From: Hyphomicrobiales bacterium
GTDB lineage: Bacteria > Pseudomonadota > Alphaproteobacteria > Rhizobiales > Beijerinckiaceae
Assembly (NCBI GenBank): GCA_019237205.1
Contig: JAFAHO010000224.1
Location: 1 to 55,557, forward strand
Reading direction: 5' to 3'
DNA: 55,557 bases
The translations under genes were made by a program, and so were the position numbers. Of this stretch, positions 12,407-38,440 are shown piece by piece (within the stretch, counting starts at the first letter, position 1; the number at the start of each line of letters is the position of its first letter). The notes under the pieces were generated by a model. That model was not told the DNA's origin. It ran no database searches and saw only the letters and a program-made list of their open reading frames with translations.

Positions 12407-12420
12407 CCTTTGTTGCCCCC

Positions 12421-17934: not shown

Positions 17935-19116
17935 ATGCAGCTTTTGCAGAAATCGGGGTTTCTCATCGCTGTCCTCGGGTGTGCCCTGTCGGGACTCTGC
18001 GCATGCTCGTCGCTTCCCGAATCCGGGCCAAGCGCGCAGGACGTGCAGCAGCAGCAGGTCGACGCTGACCAAGGGCTCAGGTACGAAGTCGTCGATATCG
18101 ATCCGTCGGTCGTCTGGGCGCTCAGGCGACGAGGCTACGAAAGCTTCTCCTCTCGATTCGGAGATCGCGCGCTGTCTCCGGAGCCGGTGATCGGGGTCGG
18201 CGACTCGGTCACGGTCACGATCTGGGAGGCGACCGCAGGCGGCCTATTTTCCGCGCCCCTCGCTGCTGAAAAGATCGGCGCCGGGTCGAACAGCGCCATG
18301 ATCCCCGAACAGGTGGTGGGGCGCGACGGCGGCATAACCGTGCCCTACGCGGGCAGAATTCATGTGGCAGGAAGGACGCCCCGGGCCGTTCAGCAAATTG
18401 TGCAGAAGGCGCTCGAGGGCAAGGCGATCGAGCCGCAGGCTCTAGTCAGCGTCACCCGGCCCGTCAGCAACAGCGTGAGCGTCGGCGGAGAAGTGACGGC
18501 CGGAGCGCGCGTTCCCCTGTCGGTCAAGGGGGACCGACTTCTCGACGTCCTGGCCGCCGCCGGCGGGGTGCGGGCGCCCGTCAACGAGACCTTTGTCGAA
18601 CTCTCGCGCGGGCCGACGACCTCCCGCATGCCCTTGTTGACGATCATTTCGAATCCCCCGGAAAACATCTACTTGCATGCGAACGACGTTCTGACCCTGG
18701 TTCGCGATCCCCAAACCTTCATCGCCTATGGCGCGACCGGGCGAAATGCGGAGATCCCCTTCGAGGCGGACGGAATCACGCTTGCCCAGGCGCTCGCCAA
18801 AGCGGGCGGCTTGCTCGACGAGCGCTCAGATCCTCGAGGCGTCTTCGTTTTCCGCTATGAGCCCGAGTCGGTTTTCAGAGCCATTCGGCCGACGAGTCCA
18901 TTGCTCGCGCATGACCGTCTCGTGCCTGTGGTCTATCGCCTCAATCTAGCCGATCCCAACAGCCTGTTTCTTGAGCAGAGTTTTCACATTGCCAATCGCG
19001 ATCTGATTTATGTGTCGAACTCGCCCTCGACAGAGCTTCAAAAAGTGTTCGCAATCATCTCCGGCGGGATAGGGCCCATCGGAACGGCCGCCAGCGTGGC
19101 TACTTACGTCAAATAG
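17935..19116 (+). CDS. capsule-type polysaccharide export outer-membrane lipoprotein (KpsD/BexD/CtrA-like)
   Basis: A 393-residue Wza-superfamily protein that would form the outer-membrane channel of an ABC-dependent polysaccharide exporter. It has a lipoprotein signal with a lipobox-like LCAC (Cys24) and a polysaccharide-export domain (GVGDSVTVTIWEATAGGLFS, then DGGITVPYAGRIHVAGRTP). SLBB-type repeats follow (SVSVGGEVTAGARVPLSVKG; AYGATGRNAEIPFEADGIT). The ATG at 17935 follows GGGGCGAGG. It precedes the polyketide synthase on the same strand and belongs functionally with the KpsE and KpsT homologues 13-16 kb downstream. Confidence 0.92.
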   Translation: MQLLQKSGFLIAVLGCALSGLCACSSLPESGPSAQDVQQQQVDADQGLRYEVVDIDPSVVWALRRRGYESFSSRFGDRALSPEPVIGVGDSVTVTIWEATAGGLFSAPLAAEKIGAGSNSAMIPEQVVGRDGGITVPYAGRIHVAGRTPRAVQQIVQKALEGKAIEPQALVSVTRPVSNSVSVGGEVTAGARVPLSVKGDRLLDVLAAAGGVRAPVNETFVELSRGPTTSRMPLLTIISNPPENIYLHANDVLTLVRDPQTFIAYGATGRNAEIPFEADGITLAQALAKAGGLLDERSDPRGVFVFRYEPESVFRAIRPTSPLLAHDRLVPVVYRLNLADPNSLFLEQSFHIANRDLIYVSNSPSTELQKVFAIISGGIGPIGTAASVATYVK

Positions 19117-19142
19117 CGGCAAGAAGATAAGCAATCGAATAC

Positions 19143-19171
19143 TTGGCGAAATAGTTAATATAGACTATAAT
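19143..19171 (+). promoter_or_regulatory. sigma-70-type promoter of the polyketide synthase gene
   Basis: TTGGCG (19143-19148), a 17-base AT-rich spacer and a perfect TATAAT (19166-19171) form a strong housekeeping-type promoter. It lies in an AT-rich island between the KpsD-like gene and the PKS. Transcription would start near 19178, leaving a leader of about 65 bases. Confidence 0.65.
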
Positions 19172-19244
19172 AACGATCCGGAGAGGAAATCGCCTGAAGT
19201 TATAGGGCGCGGCAATTCTTTGGCACGGGAAGGTACTCGCGGCT

Positions 19245-22200
19245 TTGCGCCACTATACAGGAAACACCCGAAAAGACGTTGCGGTCGTGGGCCGATCGTG
19301 CCGCCTCCCGGGCGCTCCCGACGTCTCGCGCCTCTGGGAGTTGCTCAAAGGGGGACATTGCGCGGTGTCGCGCATTCCCGCAGATCGGTGGCCGCAGAGC
19401 CGATTTGGGCATCCAAAGGGCAAGGAACGAGGCCGGAGCTATACCTGGGCGGCCGGCGTTCTCGAGGACATTTGGGGTTTCGACCCGGGTGTGTTCCGCA
19501 TTTCGCCCCGCGAGGCCGAACAGATTGATCCGCAACAACGTCTGCTGCTCGAGCTTGTCTTCGAAGCGTGCGAGGACGCGGGCCTCCCGCCCTCGCGGCT
19601 GGCGGGGAGCGGCGCAGGCGTTTATGTCGGCGCCTCAGCGCTCGATTATTCGACGATAGCCCTGCACGATCCGGCGCTTGCCGACGCCTATTTTGCGACC
19701 GGGAATACGTTGTCGATCATCTCGAACAGAATTTCGTATATTTTTGACCTCCACGGTCCGAGCCTGACCATCGACACCGCCTGTTCCTCGTCGCTTGTCG
19801 CGTTGCACGAGGCGTGCGAGGCCCTGGCGCACGGAGAGATCGACGCTGCGGTCGTTGGCGGGGTGAACATCCTGGCCGGCCCCTTCGGGTTTGTCAGCTT
19901 TTCGCAAGCAACGATGCTTTCGCCGACTGGACTCTGCCGCGCGTTTTCGGCCAACGCCGACGGCTATGTTCGTTCCGAAGGCGGCGTCGTCCTCCTGCTC
20001 AAGACTCTGGACCGGGCCCTCGCCGACGGCGATCGCGTGCACGCCGTGATCCGCGGTAGCGGAGTGAATTCTGACGGACGAACCAGCGGCATCTCGCTGC
20101 CAGCGGAGGCGTTCCAGACAAAGCTCCTTCGCGCAGTGTACGAACGGGCGGCCGTGTCTGCGGACGCTGTAGTCTATGTCGAAGCGCACGGCGCGGGGAC
20201 ACAGGCCGGCGACCCGGTCGAGGCATCCGCGCTCGGGACAATCCTGGGGCGCGTCCGGGAGAAACCGCTGCCAATCGGTTCGATCAAGACCAACGTCGGC
20301 CACCTCGAGCCCGCATCGGGCCTGGCGGGGTTGCTCAAGGCGATGCTTGCTCTGGAGCATGACGAGGCGCCGAGGTCCCTTCATTTCGAGCGCCCCAATC
20401 CAAACATCGACTTCGCGCGATTGAACCTCGCCGTAACGGCCGAGGCGACGGCCCTGCCGCCGAGAAAGGACCAGCGCTTCGCCGGCGTGAGCTCGTTCGG
20501 GTTTGGCGGGACCAACGCTCATGTCGTTCTCACCGATCCGCCCAAGGCGGTGAGACGCCCGAAATCCGAGCCCCGCTACTTGATGCTGTCGGCGCAAACC
20601 GAGGCCGCCTTGCGAACGCTAGCAGGGCAATATGCTGCGAGACTAACGCTAGAGTCGAATGACGAGGTGGATCGGATCGTCGCTGCGACGGACTACCGTC
20701 GCGAGCGCATGCGAGAGCGATTGGTCCTGCCGGCCGGCGACCAGACTGCGCTTCAATCGGCGCTCAAGCGTTTCGCGGATTTGGGGAGACCGGACGCCAT
20801 AGCGGCAAAGGGGACTGCGATTGACGGCGACAAATCCGTTGTCTTCGTTTTTTCCGGGAACGGCGCACAGTGGGAGGGAATGGGCCGAGAGGCTCTTCGC
20901 CGCGACGCGCATTTCCGCGAGGCGCTGAGAGAGATCGACTCCCATTTCTTTCGCCTGGCGCGATGGTCGTTGCAGGATAAGCTCGGGGCGCCTGATCTGA
21001 AGACCGATCTCGCAAGAACGAGCATCGCCCAGCCGCTGATTTTTGCGGTTCAAGCGGCCAGCGTCCGCGCGCTCGCCGCCATCGGCGTGCGTCCGTCGCT
21101 GACGATGGGCCACAGCGTGGGCGAGGTCGCGGCGGCGGAAGCCGCGGGCGCGCTTACTCTCGGAGACGCCGTCAAGGTCATCTATGATCGCAGTCGCCAT
21201 CAGGAGGCGACGGCCTTTACCGGCGGCATGGCCGCAGTCATAGGGTCTCGCGAGGCTTCGGTTTCGCTGGTTCGGACGTTCCCCGCGCTCACGATCGCCG
21301 CGCACAATTCCTACCGGTGCATTGTCGCCGCCGGACCGATTGACGCACTGGAGGCCCTCGCAATACGCGCGCGAGAGACGCAGAAGGTCAGGGTGCAACG
21401 GCTGGACCTTGCGTATCCGTTTCACACGCCGCTCATGGAGCGCGCAAGGCGGCCGCTTCTCGAAAGCCTGTCCGATCTTGCGCCTTCGGCCAGCGCGGCG
21501 CCTTTTCTTTCGACGATCGCCGATGCAATTCTGCCCGGCCCTTCCCTCGACAACCGCTACTGGTGGCGCAACGTCCGCGAGCCGGTCCTCTTTCAGGAGG
21601 GAGTCGAGCGTGCGATCGAAATGGGCAAGCGGGTGTTCCTCGAAATTGGTCCGCGCCCAATCCTGCGCGGTCACATTCGCGATGCGATCAACCATAGGGA
21701 TGTTGGCGCCGTTGCCGACGCCGTGCATGACGAGGAGTTCGACGATCTCGACGTCAATCCATTCGAGCATTGCGCAATTCGGCTTCTCGTCGCCGGGGCG
21801 CAAATCGATTCGTGTCATGTGTTCGGGACCGATCCCGGCGCCGGGGTTGACCTGCCCGCATACCCGTGGCGCCGGACGACCTATCGATACGGCGAAACGA
21901 CCGAGGCGACGGGCGCTTTCAGCTTGCGAGCCAGGCATCCCCTCGTCGGCGCTCGCGACAGCGCCAGCCTGGAATGGCGAACCCATCTCGACCCCGAACT
22001 TGAGCCCGCGCTTGGGGATCATCGGGTCCAGGGACAGATTCTGCTGCCCGGCGCAGCGTTCATCGAAATGGGTGTGGCGATCGCGCGCGATTGGAAGGAC
22101 AGCGACGCTGTTGCGCTGGCGGACCTCGAAATCCTCCGTCCTCTGAGTTTTGCCGGCAAGGGGTCGAGAGAAATTCTTTGTCGCATTTCCGCGGCGACCT

Positions 22201-25200
22201 CCACCTTCGAAATCATGAGTCGTCCCCGCCTCAGCACGGCGTCATTCGTGCTGCACGCGCGGGGCGCCATAGTCGACAAGGCGGGAGCCGTCGACGGCGG
22301 GCCCGCGCCCGCCGACTTCGAGGACGGGCATGAGGGCGAAGCGCTTTATTCGGTCGCCAGCCAGTGCGGTCTTGAGTTCGGTCCGGCGTTTCGCCAGCTC
22401 GCAAGAGCCAGGAGAGCCGCCGACGACGTGATCGAGGTTGAATTGTCGTCGCAAGGCGGAGACGCGCGCTACGGGCTCGATCCCGCTCGGCTCGACTCCT
22501 GTTTCCACGGATTGATCCTCCTATTCTCGAATCTCGGCCGGGAGACGGTCGGCTATTTGCCGGTGCGGTTCGACAAGATCCGATTGATGAGGCCGGCGGA
22601 GCCGCTGGCGCGAGGGCGCCTGCGTATTCGACGCGCCGACGATCGCGCCATCGTCGCCGACTACGAATTGTTCGACGATTTGGGGCGTATAGTTGCGACG
22701 CTGAGCGGCGCGCGCTATCAGCCCGCCCGCACGAGGCCATCGGCGACTCTTTCGCAAACTGGACTGGTCGAGCGTTGGATCCCCGCCACGGCAGAACTCA
22801 CGGACTCTGCGCCGGCGTTCGAAGTGGCGCCGCCTGGCGAACGCGAACCATCGCGGCTCGAGCTGCCTCCTCAGGCCGTCTTGATCGAAGGCTGGGCGAG
22901 CGCGGCCGCATCTGAGCTGGCGCACTATCTGGGCGTGGAACGAGTTCTCGATATTGACGAGCTCGTCCGGACCGGACGGTTGCCGAGCGAGAATCGTCTG
23001 TGGGCGCAAGCTATTTTCGACGCGCTCGAGGCGAGCGGCTTGCTGACGCGAGAGGCGTCCTTCTACCGGCTGAACAATAGGGACATGCCCCCCGCCGAGG
23101 CGGCGCTGACGAGTTTCGCCTGGCAATATCCGGATCGGGCGACCGAACTTCTGCTCGCGGCCAGCGTCGGCTCGTCCTTGCGCGCCTACGGATCGGGAAA
23201 AGGGGTTCTGGCGGGAGCCTCCGACGCGGCGCGCGAAGCCTTCGATCTGAGGTCGGCCTCGGCCGCCGCGGCGGCAATGGCCCTAAGCGTACGCCTCGAG
23301 CCGCTCTTCGAAGCGACAGCGCATGATCAAGCGCTGCGCATCCTCCAGGTTGGGTACGGGCCCTCAACGACGGTCGTGGCTCGCCTTGCGGCGCGTCAAA
23401 ATTCGCGGCTCACCGTCTTCGACCCTGACGCCAGGCGGCTGGAGCGAGCTCGCCACCGTTTTGGGCGCTCTCCGGAAATCTCGTTTTGCGACAATCTCGA
23501 AGGGCTCAAGACCCAAAGCTTCGACCTTATCGTGAGCTCAGGAGGCTTATCGCGGCTTTCCGTCAAACGCGGCGCTTTGCCTCAGCTTGCGGGCAAGGGC
23601 GCAGCGAATGCGAGGCTGGTCGCGATAGAACCGGCGCCGTCGTTGTTTCAAAGTCTTGTCTTTGGACTGAATGACGATTGGTTCGGCGACGATGGAGAAT
23701 GTCTGCGCTCGGCGGAAGGCTGGCGTTCGCATTTGACAAGGATGGGTTTGTCTCGCGTTCGCGCCGAGTTGACGGTTCAGGGCGGGGACGTTGCGGTCGC
23801 TATCGAGGCGCAAGTCTCCGAAGCGCGGTCCATTCTGGAGCCGCGGACGGTCGCGCCCGCGCCCGAAGTTCTGATCGTGCGCGAAGGCTCGCGGCCCGAC
23901 GATTTCATGCTCGCGCTGAAACGAGCCCTGACGAAGCGGCACGCGGCCTGCCGAGTGGTCGAGCGTCTTGAATGCGACGCCTCGTCAGAGAGCCCGCCGA
24001 CCATTCTTGCTTGGCCGGTTTGGGAGACTGAGGGCGACGGAGTGAGACGTGTCGCGGCGCAAGTCCTCGCCCTGAAGAGGCTTGCAATGGGCCTCGGCTC
24101 CGCAAAGGCCGATATCTTTGTCCCAATCGACGAGTCCGATCGTCCGGTCGCCGGCGCCGTTTCAAGCTTTCTCAGAACGCTTGGCAACGAAATTCCGGCC
24201 TTAAGCATCCATCGCGTCGAGATCCGAGCCTGGACATCCGAGGCGGCGGACAAGCTTGCCGCGGTCATCTTGTCCGGCGCCGAAGAGAGCGACATCGCGA
24301 TTCGCGATGGAAGGGTGGAGGTTTTGCGTTATGCGCCGCCCGATTTGAGCGAGGCGAGGACAACGCCGGGCCCGGGCGCCTGGCGCCTGGAGAAATCCCC
24401 AGATGGCGGGCTCGACCGCCTGCAGTGGAATCCCGCGCCGCGCGTTGCGCCGAAAGAAGGTCAGATCGAGGTCGAAGTCGTCGCGACGGGATTAAACTTT
24501 CGCGACGTCATGTGGGCGCTTTCGGTCCTTCCCGATGACATGCTGGAGGACGGATTTGCCGGGCCTACGCTCGGACTCGAGTTTTCGGGTCGCGTCGTTC
24601 GCGTCGGCCCGGACGTGACCGCGTTTCGCATCGGCGACGAAGTCGTCGGGTTTTGCGGTGGCGCTTTCAGCGCCTATGTGACCGTCGATGTCGATCATGC
24701 GGTGGCGCTGCCGTCGTCGGTCTCGTGCGAGAGCGCTGCGACCGTCCCGGTGGCCTTCCTGACCGCCTATTACGGATTGATCGGCTGCGCCAATCTGCAG
24801 CCGGGGGAGTGGGTCCTGATTCACGGCGGCGCCGGCGGCGTTGGCATGGCCGCCCTGCAAATCGCGCAGTGGCGGGGCGCTCGCGCGATCATTACCGCCG
24901 GCGCTCAGGAAAAGCGCGATCTCACGATCACGCTTGGCGCCGAATACGCGTTCGATTCGCGTTCTGGCGCTTTCGTGGACGACGTGATGCGCGTCACCGA
25001 GGGTCGCGGCGTTTCCGTCGTGCTCAATTCGCTCGCCGGCCAGGCGATGGAGAGCAGCATCGGCCTTCTGCAGCCTTTCGGGCGGTTCGTCGAACTCGGC
25101 AAGCGCGACTATCTTGCCAACACGCCTGTAGGTCTCCGGCCCTTCCGGCGGAACCTGAGCTATTTCGGCGTCGATCTCGACCAGATCCTGCTGTCGCGTC

Positions 25201-26651
25201 CTGACGTTTGGCGGCGTTTGTTCAGCGAGGTGTTGGAGGGTTTCGATCGGGGCGATTTCGCACCGCTTCCCTATACCGTGTTTGACAGCGCCGATATCGT
25301 CGAGGCGATGCGGTTGATGCAACAATCCGGCCATGTCGGACGGATTCTGGTGCGCCCACCGCCGTCCGAATGCGCGCCCAAGGCGCTCAGGCGCAGCGAA
25401 TTTCAAGTCGACGCCACGCGCACGCATCTCATCGCCGGCGGCCTCGGCGGCTTTGGAATCGAGACGGCGCGGTGGCTCGTTGAGCGTGGCGCTCGCCATC
25501 TCGTTCTCATCGGCCGTACAGGCTCCGCGAGCCAATCGGCGCGCGACGCCATAAAAGAGATGCGCGCGCGCGGCGCCGAAATTCGAGTCGAAGCGGCCGA
25601 CATCGCCGACGGCCCGTCCACAGGGGCTCTGTTTTCGGTTCTTAAACGCGAGATGCCGCCTCTCGCGGGCGTCATCCACGCGGCGATGGTGCTCGACGAC
25701 GCAATCGTCGCCAATATTGACGAGCGCCGTCTTCTCGACGTCTTGAGGCCGAAAATCTGCGGCGCCGAAAACCTGGAGCGACTGACGCTGGATCTTGATC
25801 TGGATTATTTCGTCCTGTTTTCCTCCGCGACGACGGTCATCGGGAATCCCGGCCAGGGAGCCTATGTGGCCGCCAACGGCTTTCTCGAAGGAATGGCCCG
25901 GCGGCGACGTTCTGCTGGGCTGCCCGCGCTCGCGATCGGATGGGGCGCCATTGAGGATGTCGGGATTCTGGCGCGTTCCACAGAGGTCCGGGAGGCGATT
26001 GCCGCCCGTGCTGGCGTCAAAGGGATCAAGGCGAGAGTCGCCCTCGATCTCATGGCCGAGGCGCTCGCGTTTGAGGGCGGACCCTCAGGCGACGGGGTTG
26101 TGGCTATCGCGGACATGAACTGGTCAGTCTCCCGCTCCAATCTCAAGGGCCTGACGTCTCCCACTTACGGACGACTACTGAATGCGCTGGAGCCGGATGA
26201 GGCCCGGTCGCGAACGGAAGTCGATCTTCGCGAGCTGATCAAGAGGCGCCCTCCAGAGACCGCGCGGCGCGCGGTCGCCGACGTCGTGATCGAGGAACTC
26301 GCGCGCATTTTGCGATTGGCGAGAGAAGACGTGAGCCGTTCGAAGCCGTTGTCGGAAATCGGGCTTGACTCGCTGATGGCGGTCGAATTGACGCTCGCGC
26401 TTGAAACGCGCCTCGGGCTGGATGCTCCTCTCGGCGAGGCGGCGGGCGCATTCAATGTGACGGAATTGGCCGCGCGAATTCTAGCGTCCCGACTCAGCGG
26501 CGATCACAATTTCGTCATTTCCGAGCGCCTCGCTGCACGTCATCTCGACGTTGCGGAGCGCGACGAAGTCGTTGGGTTGCTCGGCCGGCTGGAAAGAGCG
26601 GGTCCGGCCGCCGTCGCGAAGCTGGCAGGCGATCTCGACCCGCCGAGATGA
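19245..26651 (+). CDS. type I highly reducing polyketide synthase, KS-AT-DH-(MT)-ER-KR-ACP, no thioesterase
   Basis: Single-module 2468-residue synthase. KS about 12-430: Cys180 in DTACSSS, His315 in EAHGAGTQAGDP, His353 in NVGHLEPASG. AT about 530-830: GHSVGE with Ser624; YPFH at 724-727 suggests malonyl-CoA. DH about 898-1160: His926 and Asp1084. About 1200-1540 resembles a C-methyltransferase, but its SAM loop is degenerate (VGYGPS). ER about 1715-2035: HGGAGGVGMAALQ. KR about 2055-2240: Ser2194, Tyr2207 and a B-type LDD motif. ACP: Ser2376 in EIGLDSLMAVE. The domains allow full reduction after each extension, probably iteratively. There is no release domain; an oxoamine synthase encoded nearby could release the chain. 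The start is TTG 19245 with GGGAAGG 11 bases upstream, placing the KS at the very N-terminus. Confidence 0.95.
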   Translation: MRHYTGNTRKDVAVVGRSCRLPGAPDVSRLWELLKGGHCAVSRIPADRWPQSRFGHPKGKERGRSYTWAAGVLEDIWGFDPGVFRISPREAEQIDPQQRLLLELVFEACEDAGLPPSRLAGSGAGVYVGASALDYSTIALHDPALADAYFATGNTLSIISNRISYIFDLHGPSLTIDTACSSSLVALHEACEALAHGEIDAAVVGGVNILAGPFGFVSFSQATMLSPTGLCRAFSANADGYVRSEGGVVLLLKTLDRALADGDRVHAVIRGSGVNSDGRTSGISLPAEAFQTKLLRAVYERAAVSADAVVYVEAHGAGTQAGDPVEASALGTILGRVREKPLPIGSIKTNVGHLEPASGLAGLLKAMLALEHDEAPRSLHFERPNPNIDFARLNLAVTAEATALPPRKDQRFAGVSSFGFGGTNAHVVLTDPPKAVRRPKSEPRYLMLSAQTEAALRTLAGQYAARLTLESNDEVDRIVAATDYRRERMRERLVLPAGDQTALQSALKRFADLGRPDAIAAKGTAIDGDKSVVFVFSGNGAQWEGMGREALRRDAHFREALREIDSHFFRLARWSLQDKLGAPDLKTDLARTSIAQPLIFAVQAASVRALAAIGVRPSLTMGHSVGEVAAAEAAGALTLGDAVKVIYDRSRHQEATAFTGGMAAVIGSREASVSLVRTFPALTIAAHNSYRCIVAAGPIDALEALAIRARETQKVRVQRLDLAYPFHTPLMERARRPLLESLSDLAPSASAAPFLSTIADAILPGPSLDNRYWWRNVREPVLFQEGVERAIEMGKRVFLEIGPRPILRGHIRDAINHRDVGAVADAVHDEEFDDLDVNPFEHCAIRLLVAGAQIDSCHVFGTDPGAGVDLPAYPWRRTTYRYGETTEATGAFSLRARHPLVGARDSASLEWRTHLDPELEPALGDHRVQGQILLPGAAFIEMGVAIARDWKDSDAVALADLEILRPLSFAGKGSREILCRISAATSTFEIMSRPRLSTASFVLHARGAIVDKAGAVDGGPAPADFEDGHEGEALYSVASQCGLEFGPAFRQLARARRAADDVIEVELSSQGGDARYGLDPARLDSCFHGLILLFSNLGRETVGYLPVRFDKIRLMRPAEPLARGRLRIRRADDRAIVADYELFDDLGRIVATLSGARYQPARTRPSATLSQTGLVERWIPATAELTDSAPAFEVAPPGEREPSRLELPPQAVLIEGWASAAASELAHYLGVERVLDIDELVRTGRLPSENRLWAQAIFDALEASGLLTREASFYRLNNRDMPPAEAALTSFAWQYPDRATELLLAASVGSSLRAYGSGKGVLAGASDAAREAFDLRSASAAAAAMALSVRLEPLFEATAHDQALRILQVGYGPSTTVVARLAARQNSRLTVFDPDARRLERARHRFGRSPEISFCDNLEGLKTQSFDLIVSSGGLSRLSVKRGALPQLAGKGAANARLVAIEPAPSLFQSLVFGLNDDWFGDDGECLRSAEGWRSHLTRMGLSRVRAELTVQGGDVAVAIEAQVSEARSILEPRTVAPAPEVLIVREGSRPDDFMLALKRALTKRHAACRVVERLECDASSESPPTILAWPVWETEGDGVRRVAAQVLALKRLAMGLGSAKADIFVPIDESDRPVAGAVSSFLRTLGNEIPALSIHRVEIRAWTSEAADKLAAVILSGAEESDIAIRDGRVEVLRYAPPDLSEARTTPGPGAWRLEKSPDGGLDRLQWNPAPRVAPKEGQIEVEVVATGLNFRDVMWALSVLPDDMLEDGFAGPTLGLEFSGRVVRVGPDVTAFRIGDEVVGFCGGAFSAYVTVDVDHAVALPSSVSCESAATVPVAFLTAYYGLIGCANLQPGEWVLIHGGAGGVGMAALQIAQWRGARAIITAGAQEKRDLTITLGAEYAFDSRSGAFVDDVMRVTEGRGVSVVLNSLAGQAMESSIGLLQPFGRFVELGKRDYLANTPVGLRPFRRNLSYFGVDLDQILLSRPDVWRRLFSEVLEGFDRGDFAPLPYTVFDSADIVEAMRLMQQSGHVGRILVRPPPSECAPKALRRSEFQVDATRTHLIAGGLGGFGIETARWLVERGARHLVLIGRTGSASQSARDAIKEMRARGAEIRVEAADIADGPSTGALFSVLKREMPPLAGVIHAAMVLDDAIVANIDERRLLDVLRPKICGAENLERLTLDLDLDYFVLFSSATTVIGNPGQGAYVAANGFLEGMARRRRSAGLPALAIGWGAIEDVGILARSTEVREAIAARAGVKGIKARVALDLMAEALAFEGGPSGDGVVAIADMNWSVSRSNLKGLTSPTYGRLLNALEPDEARSRTEVDLRELIKRRPPETARRAVADVVIEELARILRLAREDVSRSKPLSEIGLDSLMAVELTLALETRLGLDAPLGEAAGAFNVTELAARILASRLSGDHNFVISERLAARHLDVAERDEVVGLLGRLERAGPAAVAKLAGDLDPPR

Positions 26652-28662: not shown

Positions 28663-28884
28663 AGGTCGCCCCCCGTCGGACAGGTTGGATACAACTTTCG
28701 ATTGTGACCTATTGCGATCCAGCCTAGATATTTCGTCAACATTACGCAACGGCAGGTAGAAGGCAACTGCAATAGAATCAGAACGTGTGACCATCAGACA
28801 ACACAAGCTTACAGGCGGCGCCTTGCGGAAGCCACAAAATACACCTGCAGATAACTGCGCATCATTGAATCGACGGAGTTCCGC

Positions 28885-30797: not shown

Positions 30798-32162
30798 TCA
30801 GCGCATGTCCGCTCGCGCGGACGCCGACGAAACGGTCAAGCGCAATTCCCGCAGCTGCTCGGCGAGGAGCCGGATAGCGGCGTCGATCTGTTCGAAGTTG
30901 TGTTCAGAGCTGATGAAAAAGCGCAGCCGGGCTAGCCGCTCGGGGATTGCGGGGTGGATAATCGGCTGCACGTTGACGCCTCGATCAAACAGCCGCTGAC
31001 TGAGCGCGACAGCGCGGAGCGAGCTTCCCGTGACGACCGGCGCGATCGCCTCGCCGACGCTCAAGCCGATATCCAGACCTGCAGCGCGCGCAGCCTCGTT
31101 GAAACGCCGCGAGTTCGCCTTCAGCCGGACGACGCGTTCGGGTTCGCTGCCCAAGAGCCCCAGCGCCGTGAGCGCTGCGGCTGCAATCGCGGGAGGCATG
31201 GCGACGCTGTAGACGAAGCCGCCGGCGGCGCCCTTGAGGTAGTCGACAAGCGTGTTCGGACCCGCGATGAATCCGCCGCAGGCGGCAAGCGTCTTTGACA
31301 ACGTTCCCATCCAGATGTCGACCCGCTTCGGATCGACGCCGAAATGCTCAAAGACCCCCTGGCCGGTGGGACCGAGCACACCTAGGCCATGGGCGTCGTC
31401 GATCATCAGCCACGCCTCGCGCCTGTCCTTGATTTCGATCAGCGCGGGCAAGTCGCAGATGTCGCCGTCCATGCTGTAGAGCCCCTCGGCGACGATGAGA
31501 ACCCTGTCATATTGGCCTCGAATGGCCGCAAGCGCTGCGTCGAGCGCCCCCATGTCGTTATGCGGGAAAGCGCGCCGCTCGCAACGCGCCATCATGGCGC
31601 CCATCACGATGCTGTTATGCGCGAGCGCATCATGCAGCATAAGATCTCGCGGTCCCAAGAGCGCGGCGATTGTCGCGACATTGGCGGCGTGTCCGCTCAC
31701 GTAAGTCAGAGAGCCTTCTTGCAGGTAATGGTTCGCCAAGGCCTTCTCGAGGGCGCCGTGGATCGGCCTCTCGCCGGCGACGAGACGGCTTGCCGAGGCG
31801 GAGACTCCATAGCGGTCGACTGCGCTTTGCGCCGCGCTTCGGACCGCCGGGCAGTGATTGAATCCAAGATAGTCGTACGAGGAGAAATTGATCAGCGGTC
31901 TGTTGTCGATGGTCGTCGTGGTGCCCGCGTCGGCATCGTGAACGAGAAAATAGGGGTCGCGAAGTCCCAAACCCGCGGCGGCTGACCGCAACATCTGTTG
32001 TTCCGCGTAACCGGGGAGGGTTGCGAAATCGAGCCGGCGCGAGCGATCGCTCGCTCTATCAGGACGCGCCGACGAGGACTGAGGGCCTTCGGTCAGCCCC
32101 GATCGGGCCCGAACCACGCGGTCGAGAAGTTGACGATCGGCCTCCGTCAGGCGCCGCACCAA
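30798..32162 (-). CDS. alpha-oxoamine synthase (serine palmitoyltransferase / BioF / KBL family)
   Basis: PLP enzyme that condenses an acyl thioester with an amino acid and releases CO2, giving an aminoketone. In 454-residue numbering, His182 in LAHNSIV stacks on the cofactor, Asp256/His258 lie in IDDAHGLGVLG, and Lys290 in GTLSKTLAACGG is the PLP lysine. An N-terminal extension of about 45 residues precedes DFATLPGYAEQQM. The start is unsure: TTG 32162 or GTG 32159 follow GGGGG; the frame is open to 32435, but that would overlap kpsT and is basic, low-complexity sequence. It lies between kpsT and the GNAT gene in one operon. Specificity among SPT, BioF and KBL types is not decidable by eye. 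Confidence 0.9.
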   Translation of the reverse strand: MVRRLTEADRQLLDRVVRARSGLTEGPQSSSARPDRASDRSRRLDFATLPGYAEQQMLRSAAAGLGLRDPYFLVHDADAGTTTTIDNRPLINFSSYDYLGFNHCPAVRSAAQSAVDRYGVSASASRLVAGERPIHGALEKALANHYLQEGSLTYVSGHAANVATIAALLGPRDLMLHDALAHNSIVMGAMMARCERRAFPHNDMGALDAALAAIRGQYDRVLIVAEGLYSMDGDICDLPALIEIKDRREAWLMIDDAHGLGVLGPTGQGVFEHFGVDPKRVDIWMGTLSKTLAACGGFIAGPNTLVDYLKGAAGGFVYSVAMPPAIAAAALTALGLLGSEPERVVRLKANSRRFNEAARAAGLDIGLSVGEAIAPVVTGSSLRAVALSQRLFDRGVNVQPIIHPAIPERLARLRFFISSEHNFEQIDAAIRLLAEQLRELRLTVSSASARADMR

Positions 32163-32373
32163 GCCATTCCCCCGTTTCTGACGACACTCCGGGTCTTCCT
32201 GAACCGAGCATCCGCGGACGAGCGGCCGCTTCTCGAACAGGTCTTTACGACAGAGCCCAAACCTCGATCGTGAACGCCTTCGCATGATGATGGGTTGGCA
32301 TGGCGTGACACGGCGAATGTGGCGGCGATAAGGCGTTTGCAGCCACGAATATTCGGCAGAGACATTTGCAAGT

Positions 32374-33114
32374 TCAAAGTGTCGTGTAAATCGCTTCGGC
32401 GAGTTCGATGTTATCAAAGACCTTGCCCCTTCCATCCATCAGGATTAAGGTTTTTTTACAATATTCCTTGACAAATCCGATGTCGTGAATTGCGACGATC
32501 ATCGCGCAGCTCTTTCTGTTTTGAAAAAGTTCATCATGACACTTCTGCTGAAATCTCCTGTCCCCGACGAGTATGACTTCATCTATCAGCAAACATTCGA
32601 ATTGGATCGCCAATGACAGCGCGAAAGCGAGCCGCATGCGCATGCCATTCGAGTAGAATCGCATCTGGAGATTGAGTTGCTCGCCAAGTTCCGTGAAATC
32701 CGCCACGTAATCGAATGTTTCCTTGATCGGCGCGTTGTAGAGGCGCGAAATGAATCGGACATTGTCGGCGCCTGTCAGTTCGCCTTCGAAACCGCCGCCG
32801 AAGGCAAGGGGCCAGGACATATTCAAGCCGCGGTGAATCCGGCCGTGGGTGGGGCGCTGCAGGCCGGACAATATCTTGATCAAGGTCGACTTGCCCGCCC
32901 CGTTCCGCCCCATGATCGCCATTCGCTCGCCCATCCCCACGCTGAACGAAATGCCGTCGAGGACGCGCCGTCTCCCGCCTCCTTCGGTGGGAAACTCCTT
33001 GATCACGTTGATGGCGTCGATGGTGCGGCGCGGGATCAAATCGAGAGGGGTTTCGGCGCGCCCTTCCGGGGCCGGATCCACGAGGTCCCCCGGGGCGGAT
33101 TTGACAGGAATCAC
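32374..33114 (-). CDS. capsule-exporter ATP-binding protein (KpsT-like)
   Basis: ATPase subunit of an ABC-2 polysaccharide or glycolipid exporter, 246 residues. Walker A GRNGAGKST is at 69-77, signature YSNGMRMRLAF at 154-164, Walker B LLIDE at 175-179, and the switch histidine in AIHDIGFVKEYC. LAFGGGFEGELTGADNVRF is characteristic of KpsT/Wzt/BexA proteins. The GTG start overlaps the KpsE-like stop codon (GTGA). The partner permease KpsM is not in the window and must lie elsewhere if the exporter works. Confidence 0.92.
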   Translation of the reverse strand: MIPVKSAPGDLVDPAPEGRAETPLDLIPRRTIDAINVIKEFPTEGGGRRRVLDGISFSVGMGERMAIMGRNGAGKSTLIKILSGLQRPTHGRIHRGLNMSWPLAFGGGFEGELTGADNVRFISRLYNAPIKETFDYVADFTELGEQLNLQMRFYSNGMRMRLAFALSLAIQFECLLIDEVILVGDRRFQQKCHDELFQNRKSCAMIVAIHDIGFVKEYCKKTLILMDGRGKVFDNIELAEAIYTTL

Positions 33115-34313
33115 CCTAGCTTTCCGACATGGGCCAGCGTGTCCTCGACGAACGTCCTGACGATTCGCCAGATCATGAATGCGATGGCGAAGATCCCGAG
33201 CGTCCAGGATAGGCGGTACGGGTAGGCCCGATAGTCGGGCAGATTGGCGGTAGTGATCGGTTCGACGAAAACGCGCTGCTTCAAGGCGTCGACGCGCGCG
33301 CTTTCCAGGGTTGCGAGCGCGGACATGAACGCTTTTTCCGCGAAGGTCTGATTGAGGACAAGGCCCTCATATTCCGCGACCTGCGGCGCCAGCGAATCGC
33401 TGCTTCCCGCCAGCTTTTGCCTTTCGACGCCGATCTGCTGCTGCAGCGCGTCGATCTTGTGCTTCAGGGCGGCGACTTGCGGTCCGCCGGGCGTCTCCTT
33501 TTCGACGTCCGTCAGCGTTGCATTGGTTTCCGCGGTGGCGAGCGACAGCGATGCGATTGTGTTGAATGTCGCCAGGGACGACTGGGACGGGTCGATCGTC
33601 CGCATCCGGTTGCGAAAATCAGTCACCGCGTCCAATGCCTCATGGGCGCGTTTTTCGGCGGTCTTGACCTCGTCGAGCGCGGAAGCAATCGCGTCGGCGC
33701 CCGAGCGTTGGTTCAGGCTGTTGATAAGCGCCTCAGAACGCTCAACCAGAGCCTCGGCGAGGCGCTGCGCATCGCGCGGTCGAAATGCCTGCACCCTCAG
33801 CGTCGCCACCCCGGTGCTGTGCTCGTAATCGACCGCGACGAATCTCAGATAGTGCTTGAAGAGCCGTTCGGCGCTCGGCCTGAACAGCAGGGGCGGGTAT
33901 CGCCACAGAAAATCCGCTTCTGGACGCTCAAAGGCGTCCATCAATCCCGCGCCGTCGACAAGCGAGTTCATCGCATCGCGGGACAGAATGTACTCCCGAA
34001 CGATATAGGCGTCATCCGACGAGCGAATGATCGACGACCCCTGTACGAGGCTGCTGAGTTGATTGGTCGCGCTCGTGGCGGGGCTGCGCACGACGAATTC
34101 GACTTCGGATTCGTATCGGTCCGCGGCGACAGCAAAGAAATAAAGTCCGCAGGCGAGCGTAGGCAGAGCCACCAGCACGAAGAATAGCGCGCCACGACGA
34201 ATGCGCGCTCTCCAGCGGTCTTTGACCGAGCCCGGGATCGAATCGGCGCCGTCGACTCCGAGGCGCACCAACTCGATCCGTTGAGCGGTGACTATACGTT
34301 GATCCTGGCGCAC
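33111..34313 (-). CDS. KpsE/BexC/CtrB-like inner-membrane capsule export protein, copy 1
   Basis: Periplasm-spanning adaptor that links the ABC exporter to the KpsD-like channel. The 400 residues have an N-terminal transmembrane helix (about 41-62) followed by the typical DRYESEVEFVVRSP, a long Ala/Glu/Gln-rich coiled-coil region (about 200-335) and a C-terminal helix (about 365-388) preceded by a Pro-Asp-Tyr motif (LPDYRAYPYRL). The start is GTG 34313 with only a weak ribosome-binding site. It is the first gene of the kpsE-kpsT-oxoamine synthase-GNAT operon. Confidence 0.92.
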   Translation of the reverse strand: MRQDQRIVTAQRIELVRLGVDGADSIPGSVKDRWRARIRRGALFFVLVALPTLACGLYFFAVAADRYESEVEFVVRSPATSATNQLSSLVQGSSIIRSSDDAYIVREYILSRDAMNSLVDGAGLMDAFERPEADFLWRYPPLLFRPSAERLFKHYLRFVAVDYEHSTGVATLRVQAFRPRDAQRLAEALVERSEALINSLNQRSGADAIASALDEVKTAEKRAHEALDAVTDFRNRMRTIDPSQSSLATFNTIASLSLATAETNATLTDVEKETPGGPQVAALKHKIDALQQQIGVERQKLAGSSDSLAPQVAEYEGLVLNQTFAEKAFMSALATLESARVDALKQRVFVEPITTANLPDYRAYPYRLSWTLGIFAIAFMIWRIVRTFVEDTLAHVGKLG

Positions 34314-34351
34314 TCGATGCTCAACTCTCCGTCCGCCTCATAGCAGATGCG

Positions 34352-34366
34352 CTTCCGCTGCGGAAG
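34352..34366. promoter_or_regulatory. 15-base palindrome between the divergent kpsE-like genes
   Basis: CTTCCGCTGCGGAAG has perfect 7-base arms around one central base and lies in the 97-base gap between two divergent kpsE-type genes. It could be a shared operator for both capsule transcripts. A short RNA hairpin in either leader is an alternative reading. Confidence 0.45.
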
Positions 34367-34410
34367 GACGGCCTATGGCGTAGGGGAAACCGCGATGATA
34401 GACTGAACCT

Positions 34411-35655
34411 ATGCTGGATACGGAAGACAGGCCTGCATTGCGGATTGAGGCGCTTCCCTCGCGCGAGCAGGCCGGATTCTTACGGCTGCTGCGCCAATGG
34501 CCCCTCGCGCCGCGCAATCAGCGGAACCTGCGGGAGTACAGGCCCCAACGAACGTCGCGCTGGCGCGCCTATGCGTTTCTCTTCATCGGACTTCTGCCGA
34601 CTTGGCTGACGGGCGTGTACCTCGCCGCCTTCGCCACAGACCGGTACGTGTCGGTCACGAGCTTCGTGGTGCGAACGGCCTCCAAACCCGCGGGGCCCAC
34701 GGGATTTGGGGCTCTGCTGCAAATGGTCGGTTTTTCCCGATCGGACGACGATGTTTTCTCGGTTCAGGATTTTCTGCGCTCGCGGGAAGCCGTCGATCGA
34801 CTCGGCAAACAACTTCCGTTGCATGAAATCTTTTCGCATTCGGGCCGTGATTTCGTGATGGCGTTCCCGTCCCTTCGGTATGGGGATACAAACGAAGAAT
34901 TCTACGAGTATGTCCAGAATTTCGTTGATGTCGTCTACAACAGCACGACCGATATCACCACGCTGACGGTTCAGGCGTTTCGGCCACAAGACGCCTACCG
35001 GATGGCCTCGGCTATGCTGGCCTTGGCCGAAGGGAAGGTGAACGACCTGAACGCGCGTATCCGGGACGACGCGGTTCGGGTCGCCAATGGCGAAGTTCAG
35101 CGGTCGGAAGCGCGGCTATCAGACGCAATGGTGAAAGTGACCGCGTTCCGAAACCGGGAAATGATGATCGACCCCAACAGGAACTCGATTATCCTGAGCG
35201 AATTGATCGGCCATCTCGGCGAGGATCTCGCCCAAACGCAATCTTTGGCCCGGGAAAAGGCGAGCGGTTCGCCGGAAGATCCCGGTCTTCCAGCGCTTCG
35301 ACAAAAGGCTGCGGCGCTGCAAAGTCAGATTCAGGCGGAGCGGGGTAAGATCGCCGACGACTCGACCGGCCTTGCGGACAAGCTCTCTGCTTATGAGCGC
35401 CTCACGATGGAGCGCGATTTCGCCCAGGCGGCGCTGACGCGATCATTGGACGCTCTCGATCTGGCGCGGGCCGAAGCTCGGCGCCAGCAATTGTTTCTGG
35501 AACGAATCGTGAGCCCGCAACTGCCCGACTATCCTCTGAGGCCCGCCAGCCTCGCGACGTTCTTCACGGTGCTCGCGCTCAATTTCATCGCTTTGATGGT
35601 TGTGTGGCTTCTGCGCACGGGCGTGCAGGAGCATGTTCAATATAACGAGCAGTAG
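34411..35655 (+). CDS. KpsE/BexC/CtrB-like inner-membrane capsule export protein, copy 2
   Basis: A 414-residue paralogue of the divergently encoded copy 1. It has a 50-residue basic N-terminal tail, a transmembrane helix at about 53-75, the motif TDRYVSVTSFVVRTA, a coiled-coil middle (about 215-345), SPQLPDYPLRPASLATF and a final transmembrane helix. The longer N-terminus and low overall identity to copy 1 show an old duplication or separate origins. It heads a plus-strand run with two GT4 glycosyltransferases. Confidence 0.9.
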   Translation: MLDTEDRPALRIEALPSREQAGFLRLLRQWPLAPRNQRNLREYRPQRTSRWRAYAFLFIGLLPTWLTGVYLAAFATDRYVSVTSFVVRTASKPAGPTGFGALLQMVGFSRSDDDVFSVQDFLRSREAVDRLGKQLPLHEIFSHSGRDFVMAFPSLRYGDTNEEFYEYVQNFVDVVYNSTTDITTLTVQAFRPQDAYRMASAMLALAEGKVNDLNARIRDDAVRVANGEVQRSEARLSDAMVKVTAFRNREMMIDPNRNSIILSELIGHLGEDLAQTQSLAREKASGSPEDPGLPALRQKAAALQSQIQAERGKIADDSTGLADKLSAYERLTMERDFAQAALTRSLDALDLARAEARRQQLFLERIVSPQLPDYPLRPASLATFFTVLALNFIALMVVWLLRTGVQEHVQYNEQ

Positions 35656-35726
35656 GCGCGAATCTGCGGTTTTGACAATCTTGTTGCAGCGACGCTCGGC
35701 TCGACAGGCGCGCCGCGGGGGGCTCA

Positions 35727-37109
35727 ATGGACGCCAGCGTCCTCTATGATGGACACAATCTCACCCTGTCAAAATCGACCGGGATCGGCACCTACGCGCG
35801 GACGCTCGCAGCGACCGCGGCGAGGATCGGTTTCAAACCGGAAATCCTGTTGGGCGGCAACGCGTCAGTCGATAGGAAGGACCCGCAACTCAGCGAAATT
35901 GTCCTGTTTGATGCGCTTACGGCGCTCAAACCCTCGCTCAAATTGCGCTTGGAGCGGTTTCTCGCCACCCTTTGGGGCAAGCCTCTCGGCGTGAGGTCGG
36001 CCGAATTCTCACGCGCCGGCGCTGTTCTCAACGGCGTCATGTCGAGTCTGGACGGCTTCGACAGAATGCACGTCGCTCCGAGCTTGTTTGAGGTAGGCCA
36101 GTCCCATTTTCACCGATATGGCGCGCGCGCCGAAGTGAAGCTGTCCAGCGCGCCCTCGCTCTTTCACATGACGTTTCCGACTCCGCTCAAAACGCGGGGA
36201 TGCCCCAACATCTATACTATCCACGACATTGTCCCGTTGCGCCTGCCTCAGACGACTTTGGACAACAAGAAGCAGTTCTTGCGACTCGTCCGCCATCTCT
36301 GCCGCAAGGCGGATCACATTGTGACTGTTTCTGAGTTTTCGCGGCAGGATATCATTCGCTTTGTCGGGATCTCGGAAAATAGAATCACGAACACTTACCA
36401 AAGCGTGCATTTGCCGGCGGTAATCAGCAAGAAAAGCGATGACGAAGTCGCCAACGAAGCGGCGCACGCATTTGGTCTCGATTTCCGAAGTTACTACATG
36501 TTTTACGGCGCAATTGAGCCCAAAAAGAATGTTTCCCGCATGATCGACGCCTATGCGGCGTCCGGCAGCGCGTTTCCGCTGATCATCGTGGGCGGGCTCG
36601 GATGGCAATACGAAGACGATGTCGAGAAGATCAAGGACGATCGATTTCTCTATTATCGCCAAGAGGCGGATCGCATCGTTCCCAGTCGACGAGTCCAGCG
36701 GATTCCCTACTTGCCCTTTTCGCAACTCATGACGTTGGTGAAGGGCGCGCGCGGCGTCCTTTTTCCGTCGCTCTATGAGGGTTTTGGGCTGCCCGTGCTT
36801 GAGGCCATGGCGCTCGGAACGCCGGTGATCACCTCGAACGTGGCGTCCTTGCCGGAAGTCAGCGCGGGGGCGGCTTTTCTCGTCGATCCGACCGACGTTG
36901 ATTCCATGACCAAGGCGATCCGCGCTTTCGATCACGACGACGGCCTGCGGCAGGACCTCGCGCTCAAGGGGAGAAAGAGGGCGGCCTTTTTCGAGCCTCA
37001 AGCGTACCAGGACCGCCTGGCGAACCTCTACTCGAAACTCGGCGTCGGACCCGTTCCGGTTGAGGCGCCGAGCGCCCACGTCATGAGTCTGCAAACGACG
37101 GCCTTATGA
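35727..37109 (+). CDS. GT4 glycosyltransferase
   Basis: A 460-residue GT-B enzyme with the GT4 pattern: STGIGTYARTLAATA (N-terminal acceptor side), IYTIHDIVPLRLPQTTLDN, VTVSEFSRQDIIRFVG, FYGAIEPKKNVSRMIDAYA and the donor-binding motif PSLYEGFGLPVLEAMALGTP. It probably builds the glycan of the cluster, likely with a mannose- or related donor, though donor type cannot be read reliably. The ATG at 35727 lies 71 bases after the KpsE copy 2 stop codon. Confidence 0.93.
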   Translation: MDASVLYDGHNLTLSKSTGIGTYARTLAATAARIGFKPEILLGGNASVDRKDPQLSEIVLFDALTALKPSLKLRLERFLATLWGKPLGVRSAEFSRAGAVLNGVMSSLDGFDRMHVAPSLFEVGQSHFHRYGARAEVKLSSAPSLFHMTFPTPLKTRGCPNIYTIHDIVPLRLPQTTLDNKKQFLRLVRHLCRKADHIVTVSEFSRQDIIRFVGISENRITNTYQSVHLPAVISKKSDDEVANEAAHAFGLDFRSYYMFYGAIEPKKNVSRMIDAYAASGSAFPLIIVGGLGWQYEDDVEKIKDDRFLYYRQEADRIVPSRRVQRIPYLPFSQLMTLVKGARGVLFPSLYEGFGLPVLEAMALGTPVITSNVASLPEVSAGAAFLVDPTDVDSMTKAIRAFDHDDGLRQDLALKGRKRAAFFEPQAYQDRLANLYSKLGVGPVPVEAPSAHVMSLQTTAL

Positions 37110-37138
37110 TCGACGGCGTTGGCGCTCTCTAAGATTGC

Positions 37139-38440
37139 ATGCCGACCGCATCGACCAATGGGCAGAGGCCAATAGTCTTCGACGTCACGCACGTGGTTTC
37201 GCGACTGCCGAAACTGGCGTCGACCGGGATCGACAGGATCGATTTGGCCTATGCCTCGCGCTTCGCGCGGCCCGGCGCGATGGCGGCTGGAGTGCACTAC
37301 GGACTGCGGCGGCCCCATCTCCTTTCCGTCGATGAGGCCCGGGAGTTCGTCGCCCTGTCAGAGTCATTGTGGGCTGAAGCCGGCGCCGCAAATGGGGCGG
37401 CCTTCTTGGCGGTTCTGCACTGGCTCGCTGCGCCCCCCGACCCCGGCTTGCGGAAGCCGGGCCGACAGATGCCCACGCCTGCCGCCTCAGACCGATTGAG
37501 ACGCCTTCAGCAGCTGAGGGGCCGCATCCTGAACAACCGCGCGCTCAGCGTTCCGGAACGTGCGATCTATCTCAATGTTGCACAACACCTGTTCGAGCAC
37601 CCAATCTTTTTCCGATGGCTGAAGCAGCGAGACGATCTATGCAACGTGTTCATGATTCACGACCTTCTGTCCTTGGATTATCCGGAGTTTTTTTCTCCCC
37701 CCAACCTCGACATCTTTCGCCGGCGGCTTTCCACCGCGTTTCTCCACGCGAGCGCCTTCATCGTCTCGACGCAGTCGGTCAAGCGGCGCCTCGAAGAGGA
37801 GCTTCATCGTCAGGGGTCGCGTCCGAGACCTGTGCATGTGCTGCCGTTTCCCTCGCCCCTGGAGGGCAGCCGGCGCGCGTCGCACGCGGATATGGTCTGG
37901 CTGGGCCATCCGTATTTCGTGATGCTTGGAACCGTCGAGCCCCGCAAGAACCATCTTCTCTTGCTGCATGCGTGGCGACAGCTCGTTATCGAAAATCCTC
38001 GAGCCCCGCGTCTTGTCATGGTCGGCGCCAGGGGCTGGGAGACCGAGCAGGTCGCCGACTTGCTCGACCGCAGCGCCGCGCTGCGCGGGCACATCCTGGA
38101 GCTGAGCGGGGTGTCCTCTCCGGACCTGGTCGATCTCTTGCGCGGCGCCCGCGCCTTGCTCATGCCTTCCTTCGAGGAAGGCTATGGTTTGCCCTTGGTC
38201 GAGGCGCTTTCGACCGGCACGCCTGTCGTCGCATCCGACGTTGCGGTGTTCCACGAAGTGACGCAGGAACGCGCGACTTTCCTCTCCCCCCTCAACGGCG
38301 AGGCGTGGCGGGACGTCATCAAACGAATGACGGGCGATAAAGACTACGCCGCCGAAAGGCGCGCGGAGGCGGCGAAGTTCGAACCGCCAATCTGGTCGGG
38401 CTACTTCGAAGAGTTGGATCGGTTTCTGGCAGCGTTGTGA
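37139..38440 (+). CDS. GT4 glycosyltransferase, paralogue of the PKS-linked GT4
   Basis: A 433-residue GT-B enzyme with MLGTVEPRKNHLLLLHAWRQ, VGARGWETEQVADLLDRSAA and PSFEEGYGLPLVEALSTGTP in the C-terminal half. Its N-terminal half (FDVTHVVSRLPKLASTGIDRI; FMIHDLLSLDYPEFF) closely parallels the protein at 26648-27952, so the two descend from a duplication. They could add successive similar sugars. It follows the previous GT4 gene by 29 bases. Confidence 0.93.
   Translation: MPTASTNGQRPIVFDVTHVVSRLPKLASTGIDRIDLAYASRFARPGAMAAGVHYGLRRPHLLSVDEAREFVALSESLWAEAGAANGAAFLAVLHWLAAPPDPGLRKPGRQMPTPAASDRLRRLQQLRGRILNNRALSVPERAIYLNVAQHLFEHPIFFRWLKQRDDLCNVFMIHDLLSLDYPEFFSPPNLDIFRRRLSTAFLHASAFIVSTQSVKRRLEEELHRQGSRPRPVHVLPFPSPLEGSRRASHADMVWLGHPYFVMLGTVEPRKNHLLLLHAWRQLVIENPRAPRLVMVGARGWETEQVADLLDRSAALRGHILELSGVSSPDLVDLLRGARALLMPSFEEGYGLPLVEALSTGTPVVASDVAVFHEVTQERATFLSPLNGEAWRDVIKRMTGDKDYAAERRAEAAKFEPPIWSGYFEELDRFLAAL

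Follow-up and report, generated by a model that had tools for sequence, protein, structure and literature searches.

A capsule-type polyketide synthase locus of a Hyphomicrobiales bacterium that pairs an RkpG-like oxoamine synthase with a relative of bacterial ceramide synthase

We analyzed a 55,557-nucleotide stretch (the window; contig JAFAHO010000224.1, assembly GCA_019237205.1) of a Hyphomicrobiales bacterium of the Beijerinckiaceae, and in it the locus at positions 17935-38440. This locus probably represents a capsule lipid-anchor module of the rkp-1/wcb type, in which a ceramide-type step would have been added to the known set of reactions. The set consists of a type I polyketide synthase (PKS), an alpha-oxoamine synthase (AONS), a short-chain dehydrogenase/reductase (SDR) and capsule export proteins. 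The new element appears to be a ceramide-synthase-type N-acyltransferase of the GNAT type (hereafter GNAT), whose gene is coupled to that of an RkpG-like AONS; a CDP-alcohol phosphotransferase (CDP-AP) would be a second, more local addition. Homology, tree placement and gene coupling support the ceramide-type step as a probable new variant. Passages of two papers call the rkpA/rkpGHIJ product a lipophilic molecule or a lipid carrier for the capsule, with no closer definition (PMC4881576, PMC3557214). That a ceramide-synthesis gene is locked to an RkpG-like gene in several genera points, at the level of sequence, to the nature of that lipid, and suggests that the capsule anchor may be ceramide-like. 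This would join capsule anchoring and bacterial sphingolipids, and cultured strains make the old question of the anchor testable. In the open-access literature searched, we recognized no paper linking the rkp/wcb capsule lipid with bacterial ceramide synthesis.

Neither Pfam (at E 0.001) nor NCBIfam (at E 0.1) has a model that matches the GNAT, and its identity therefore rests on homologues. It matches 44 records of the plasmid collection, E. coli YghO among them, and the homology is full-length: 33.4% identity over 99% to E. coli YghO, and 33-36% to YghO and Roseomonas copies. The E. coli yghO locus encodes LptF, LptG, an AONS of the serine palmitoyltransferase (SPT) type, an acyl carrier protein (ACP), an epimerase-type reductase and a fatty acyl-AMP ligase, and the Roseomonas marmotae copy lies in a similar cluster. 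In dihydroceramide synthesis, the gene for the N-acyltransferase (aca) is listed as yghO and CC_1154 (PMC9386255). CerS is described as a cytoplasmic N-acyltransferase, the order of acylation and reduction being debated (PMC11324152, PMC11087976). Judged by homology, the GNAT is related over its full length to E. coli YghO, itself the counterpart of Caulobacter CerS. The initial annotation had called it similar to bacterial ceramide synthase, and the full-length homology to YghO and the tree placement bear this out. A profile search of the PDB with the GNAT gave weak GNAT matches only (best E 0.015), with four weaker ones to NATA1-type GNATs (E 0.57-0.85).

The loci and genomes compared carry L- and G-numbers; G000 is the window's own genome, a draft of 5.46 Mb that is 91% complete and holds one such GNAT (E <= 0.001). 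Among the best 80 of at least 503 GNAT relatives in named genomes, an RkpG-like AONS accompanies 14, ceramide-cluster genes accompany 46 and a sister type of AONS accompanies one; 19 have neither nearby. In all 14 RkpG-linked loci, AONS and GNAT are on the same strand, and in 11 the gap is -3 to 13 bp; the remaining three gaps (-25, -558 and -564) look like over-long start calls. The PKS lies within 191 bp of the AONS in nine of the 14 and in the same locus in two more (L104, L108), with none nearby in three (L103, L106, L107). No match to SPT, AcpR, AasR or CerR was found near the GNAT in any of the 14. L103, L105, L106 and L107 appear to be contigs already in G009, G013, G005 and G004 and are not extra evidence. 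Methylopila, Hansschlegelia, Chelatococcus and Aquibaculum have PKS, AONS and GNAT as immediate neighbors; in Aquibaculum arenosum (L109:800-13251) PKS, AONS, ceramide-synthase-type GNAT, SDR and Capsule_synth form one run, an rkp-1-like set plus the extra gene.

In a tree of 100 rows, labeled by gene neighborhood alone, all 16 RkpG-adjacent GNATs fall in one clade of 17 rows (support 100/100), which lies among ceramide-type rows. The 17th member is the Beijerinckia mobilis copy (L037), whose AONS is on another contig with KpsD and CDP-AP. Across 40 copies (capsule-type, ceramide-type and other), 25 columns are invariant.

The genes of the locus are as follows.
17935..19116, plus strand: KpsD/VexA-like outer-membrane polysaccharide export protein (PF02563 Poly_export 6.6e-15; SLBB_2 3.8e-12; 54% to the Methylobacterium bullatum copy adjoining its PKS-AONS).
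19245..26651, plus strand: RkpA/WcbR-like type I PKS, KS-AT-DH-(MT-like, atypical)-ER-KR-ACP (domain matches, motifs, homologues).
26648..27952, plus strand: GT4 glycosyltransferase (PF13692/PF00534; homologues 3' of the PKS in relatives).
27943..28806, minus strand: CDP-AP, candidate head-group enzyme (PF01066 26 bits, cut-off 22; NF040950 3.9e-13, below cut-off).
28885..29661, plus strand: SDR, candidate 3-keto reductase, RkpH-like (PF00106 5.4e-42).
29658..30797, minus strand: N-acyltransferase-like GNAT of the ceramide-synthase family, YghO/CC_1154 (homologues; tree clade 100/100).
30798..32162 (longest open reading frame to 32435), minus strand: RkpG-like AONS (PF00155 1.2e-43; RkpG clade 100/99).
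32374..33114, minus strand: KpsT-like ABC transporter ATPase (PF00005 2.1e-17; 51% to an Acidisoma KpsT-like protein).
33111..34313, minus strand: KpsE-like inner-membrane export protein (TIGR01010 249 bits, below the 437-bit cut-off).
34411..35655, plus strand: second KpsE-like protein (TIGR01010 258 bits, below the 437-bit cut-off).
35727..37109, plus strand: GT4 glycosyltransferase (PF00534 6e-25).
37139..38440, plus strand: GT4 glycosyltransferase, kin of the PKS-linked GT4 (PF00534 1.9e-20; 38-43% to GT4 copies in relatives' loci).

Every gene type that the initial annotation had named is present, on Pfam, NCBIfam and homologue evidence; the second of the two KpsE-like genes is an addition to it. 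The order is kpsD+, PKS+, GT4+, CDP-AP-, SDR+, GNAT-, AONS-, kpsT-, kpsE-, kpsE+, GT4+, GT4+. The 3' end of the PKS gene overlaps the adjoining GT4 gene by 4 bp, and the GNAT start directly abuts the AONS stop codon; PKS and AONS are 4 kb apart on opposite strands. For the AONS, a TTG at 32162 is the likely start, giving 454 amino acids: a purine-rich stretch lies ahead of it and it matches the start of the G009 relative, while the longest frame (30798-32435) runs into kpsT.

This gene set is not a chance assembly, because it recurs in genomes of the same genus. AONS, GNAT, SDR, CDP-AP and KpsD are found together again in two of them (L035, with KpsD as a fragment, and L039), and AONS-GNAT in two further ones (L036, with CDP-AP, and L041). 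In L035 (G004), the genes bordering the locus in the window (GT2, PMT and hydrolase) stand directly before AONS, GNAT, SDR, CDP-AP and the KpsD fragment. Relative to L035, the AONS-GNAT-SDR-CDP-AP block is inverted in the window, and PKS and GT4 sit between KpsD and CDP-AP. In G001, G004 and G009 PKS and GT4 are on other contigs, and the compact layout of the window is therefore one arrangement of a conserved set. PKS-GT4 pairs are also present in L096, L097, L098 and L100. The SDR, a member of a large family, is 68-69% identical to its counterparts in L035 and L039, 48% to that of M. bullatum and 33% to that of Sinorhizobium meliloti.

Co-occurrence was counted without regard to kinship in two samples. 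The first comprised 297 genomes of the order (PKS E <= 1e-150, AONS E <= 1e-110, window-type GNAT E <= 1e-84; cut-offs chosen after the first relatives' results), and only the best candidates per genome were scored (up to six for GNAT and AONS, two for PKS), so that absences are soft. PKS was found in 67 genomes, AONS in 73 and GNAT in 11. All 67 PKS genomes have the AONS, and in the 66 besides G000 the two genes are on one contig with 219-488 bp between matched segments. GNAT occurred only alongside PKS and AONS (11/11: G000 and ten of one other genus grouping, including Methylopila and Hansschlegelia). The second sample comprised 60 nearer relatives, G000 included (GNAT >= 50%, PKS E <= 1e-200, AONS >= 387 bits; the weaker-match genomes G039, G053 and G059 were dropped from the PKS set). 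Here the closest GNATs are in 7 genomes, PKS in 10 and AONS in 13, with GNAT accompanied by PKS in 6/7 and by AONS in 7/7, and PKS by AONS in 10/10. At these cut-offs none of the three genes was found in six of the ten other genus members (G002, G003, G006, G007, G008, G010). These counts, together with neighboring KpsD, KpsE and KpsT genes, agree with the earlier proposal of a lipid pathway merged with a capsule-type exporter: the lipid genes keep company with one another as well as with capsule export genes, and PKS beside AONS is a regular arrangement.

The PKS contains KS, AT, DH, ER, KR and ACP domains by Pfam, with no thioesterase match; its MT-like stretch scores below Pfam cut-offs and has an atypical SAM motif. 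All sequence signatures sought were present: KS DTACSSS, AT GHSVGE, DH HxxxGxxxxP, the ER and KR nucleotide motifs and ACP GLDSL. The enzyme presumably works iteratively. Identity is 47% over residues 9-2415 to the M. bullatum PKS and 38-41% to that of S. meliloti. A tree of the AONS (85 rows, E. coli BioF and Kbl each entered twice) places it in a clade of 40 rows (100/99) that also holds the S. meliloti copy and those of the Burkholderia type; E. coli Kbl and BioF, ALAS and the ceramide-cluster SPTs lie elsewhere in the tree. Alignment with the other groups brings its Lys, His and Arg motif regions into register with theirs. By this placement, in one clade with the S. meliloti copy, the AONS is RkpG-like. 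A housekeeping BioF, KBL or ALAS was rejected as its identity, each of these forming its own group in the tree. In G000 a single AONS of this kind was matched (E <= 1e-60). The bioF model has three matches there (E <= 1e-40), namely KBL, ALAS and the RkpG-like AONS; none is of the SPT type, and no BioF was found in the draft. AONS domains also occur in one long frame with other domains, namely within an annotated type I PKS in Planktothrix (L202:1548-9146), in a 1607-residue Streptomyces protein (L203:6311-11134) and in a 2716-residue frame of G045 (L060:1-2694) that is possibly open by chance.

The initial annotation knew of no described bacterial system with this full set. That reading is contradicted by rkp-1/wcb, since PKS, AONS, SDR and export genes are the layout of this capsule module. 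In S. meliloti a KpsD-like protein, a 2502-amino acid PKS, AONS, SDR, a sulfatase-family protein, a capsule biosynthesis protein and KpsF are encoded close together; the record carries no rkp names, and the match to rkp-1 is by gene order, with RkpG taken by us to be the oxoamine synthase and RkpH the SDR. The record of strain Ak57 (CP090106.1, L030), labeled pSymB, is 3.72 Mb long and has rkp-1-like genes; it is probably a mislabeled chromosome. The rkp-1 region is reported to serve synthesis and modification of the K polysaccharide lipid carrier (PMC4881576); rkpA is reported to make, and rkpGHIJ to modify and transport, a lipophilic molecule that may serve as carrier or anchor (PMC3557214). 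The wcb clusters of Burkholderia are described as the counterpart, with the type I PKS gene wcbR/rkpA (PMC3908369). In two betaproteobacterial and one Pseudomonas plasmid record, capsule or export genes accompany PKS, AONS, SDR and a gene of the LTA-synthase family.

With rkp-1 (rkpU, rkpA, rkpG, rkpH, rkpI, rkpJ) of Sinorhizobium and wcb of Burkholderia, the window shares the single-module, thioesterase-less PKS, the RkpG-clade AONS, the RkpH-like SDR and linked capsule genes, here KpsD, KpsT and two KpsE. It differs in that AONS adjoins PKS there and lies 4 kb away here, in the added GNAT and CDP-AP, and in lacking RkpI (sulfatase/LTA-synthase-like) and RkpJ (Capsule_synth, KpsC/KpsS) genes. 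Neither was found among the window proteins scanned; the search was extended to the whole of G000 for PF05159 (KpsC/KpsS), with no match, and for RkpI was confined to the window. Placement in the rkp-1/wcb kind is thus predicted from PKS, AONS, SDR and export features and is well supported by them, RkpI and RkpJ being absent from the match. The proteobacterial ceramide cluster (aasR, acpR, spt, cerR, cerS; Caulobacter CC_1162-1165 and CC_1154; E. coli yghO) has in common with the window the homologous N-acyltransferase, an AONS, a reductase and, in some cases, a CDP-AP; in the tree the window AONS stands outside the SPT group, and the window has PKS in place of AasR/AcpR, SDR for CerR and a capsule exporter for LptFG. 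Its CDP-AP was rejected as the one of ceramide clusters, given the weak similarity to that of Roseomonas (27% over 115 residues). The E. coli group 2 capsule system (KpsMTED with KpsC/KpsS) shares the KpsT-, KpsE- and KpsD-like exporter parts, whereas its poly-Kdo linker enzymes KpsC/KpsS were not found in the G000 draft (PF05159). Fungal fumonisin-type pathways combine a PKS of the same domain order with an oxoamine synthase and a ketoreductase; this parallel extends to domain order only, and the window genes have close bacterial kin.

From the gene identities, conserved coupling and family placements, which are established at the sequence level, we infer the following chemistry. The PKS would assemble a long saturated acyl chain, borne by the ACP domain of the enzyme itself, and for want of a thioesterase would pass it to the RkpG-like AONS, which would condense it with an amino acid, most likely serine, to a 3-keto long-chain base. 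The SDR would reduce the ketone, and the ceramide-synthase relative encoded directly behind the AONS would N-acylate the base to a ceramide-like lipid. CDP-AP and one GT4 would then add a phospho-alcohol and the first sugar, replacing the KpsC/KpsS poly-Kdo linker; the other GT4 enzymes would extend the chain, and the KpsT/E/D exporter would carry the anchored polysaccharide out.

Several observations weigh against this reading, and the first group concerns the AONS. The best NCBIfam model for it is bioF (355 bits, cut-off 426), and the three SPT models score 293, 260 and 191 bits against cut-offs of 640, 500 and 670, none being reached. For a 131-residue stretch at the N-terminus, the best PDB match is BioF. 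In AU tests the RkpG-like clade could be joined with SPT (p 0.475), BioF (0.268) or KBL (0.288); none of these deep groupings was rejected. The protein is RkpG-like and at most a candidate SPT. Of the three outcomes named there as refuting (an AONS grouping firmly with BioF or KBL, a GNAT unrelated to ceramide synthases, lipid genes not conserved with export genes) none was found, with the AU tests still allowing the first grouping. These data would fit a non-sphingoid rkp lipid: RkpG would use glycine or alanine, or the chain would be released in another way, and the GNAT would acylate the amine of another amino-ketone lipid that still anchors the capsule. We regard this as unlikely, though worth keeping in view. 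With the whole protein as query an SPT is the best PDB match (223 bits), a separate BioF-like gene is present in G013 (L185, 422 bits, cut-off 426), and sister AONS-GNAT pairs adjoin a sphingolipid-type desaturase (L093) or FA_hydroxylase (L093, L032).

These sister pairs come from a sub-clade of nine AONSs that are also GNAT-linked. In L093 the pair is followed by Lipid_DES/FA_desaturase (Lipid_DES being the sphingolipid delta4-desaturase) and FA_hydroxylase, kinds of enzymes that act on sphingoid bases. On a plasmid of Acidisoma sp. PAMC 29798 (L032:12774-28134), AONS, SDR, ceramide-synthase-type GNAT and FA_hydroxylase lie inside a cluster with KpsE-, KpsM-, KpsT- and KpsD-like genes, and no PKS was found in that stretch. 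Both loci are the best indirect hint that AONS-GNAT pairs of this superclade may make ceramide-like lipids, and that these may go with capsules. The sister pairs of same-family genomes (L093:962-5208, L050:8708-12884, L090:7952-10382, L083:9110-11496, L091:8981-11514), near which no SPT, CerR or full-length PKS was matched, possibly represent a further sphingolipid cluster.

A second group of unfavorable observations concerns the link with export. No kps gene was matched near these five sister pairs, and the PKS is on a different contig from AONS-GNAT in three of the four relatives of the same genus that have this pair. No KpsM was found among the window genes scanned or, with one KpsM query, in the G000 draft. 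One same-genus genome, Roseiarcus fermentans (G005), has GNAT and AONS and no type I PKS match at 1e-50; its GNAT and GT4 genes are separated (L106/L039:11318-13165) by genes for a FabF-like ketosynthase and a MaoC dehydratase, which would agree with a role of the PKS as a replaceable chain supplier. The locus product could instead be a free sphingolipid-like membrane lipid or a secreted small molecule, the export genes being mere neighbors, as the separation of AONS-GNAT from PKS and the kps-free sister pairs would suggest. This is improbable, since the AONS has KpsD, KpsE or KpsT close by in the window and in L104, L106 and L082, and KpsD is also found beside PKS-AONS in M. bullatum and S. 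meliloti; furthermore, rkp-1 is reported as required for K polysaccharide (PMC4881576).

Most PKS genomes do without the GNAT: 56 of the 67 in the order sample have none of the window type at the cut-off, and N-acylation is therefore not needed for the basic system. The capsule-type GNATs form their own clade on a long branch (0.66), and other, shorter GNATs are present in some rkp/wcb-like clusters (L033, L204), as would be expected if the window GNAT had left ceramide synthesis and acylated a sugar of the anchor or capsule. With the GNAT directly coupled to AONS and the invariant columns common to ceramide-type copies, such a change of substrate is hardly probable. The probabilities of these three alternatives overlap, because a capsule anchor is part of two of them as well.

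The ceramide-type anchor reading has a wider form, in which rkp/wcb capsules across alpha-, beta- and gammaproteobacteria would be anchored by sphingoid lipids from a dedicated PKS, and the window would make a genuine ceramide analogue, on which a phospho-alcohol head group added by CDP-AP has taken the place of the poly-Kdo linker. We put this forward tentatively, as possible and short of probable. CDP-AP is present in 10 of the 79 genomes tested and tracks the absence of PF05159: it was found in 8 of 13 PF05159-negative and in 1 of 60 positive genomes (p 8e-7, ignoring kinship; G010 has CDP-AP and stands outside this comparison). PF05159 has no match in six related GNAT genomes, as in G000, and is missing in 8 of 68 PKS genomes. 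Gain of the GNAT as the explanation of KpsC/KpsS loss was refuted, PF05159 being kept in 10/10 Methylopila-group GNAT genomes, and this too speaks against the ceramide-type anchor reading in general. The Kdo capsule of S. meliloti 1021 reportedly has a phospholipid anchor, to judge from the title of a cited paper, a further point against that reading. E. coli-type capsules are reported to be built on phosphatidylglycerol.

Two neighboring regions of the window were also inspected. To the right of the locus, a 424-amino acid reading frame at 38516-39790 has no Pfam or NCBIfam match and no match in the compared loci, and may lie outside the system. To the left of the locus, positions 5602-13230 hold an ordinary cluster of arabinose isomerase, aldolase, FGGY kinase and sugar ABC transporter genes.

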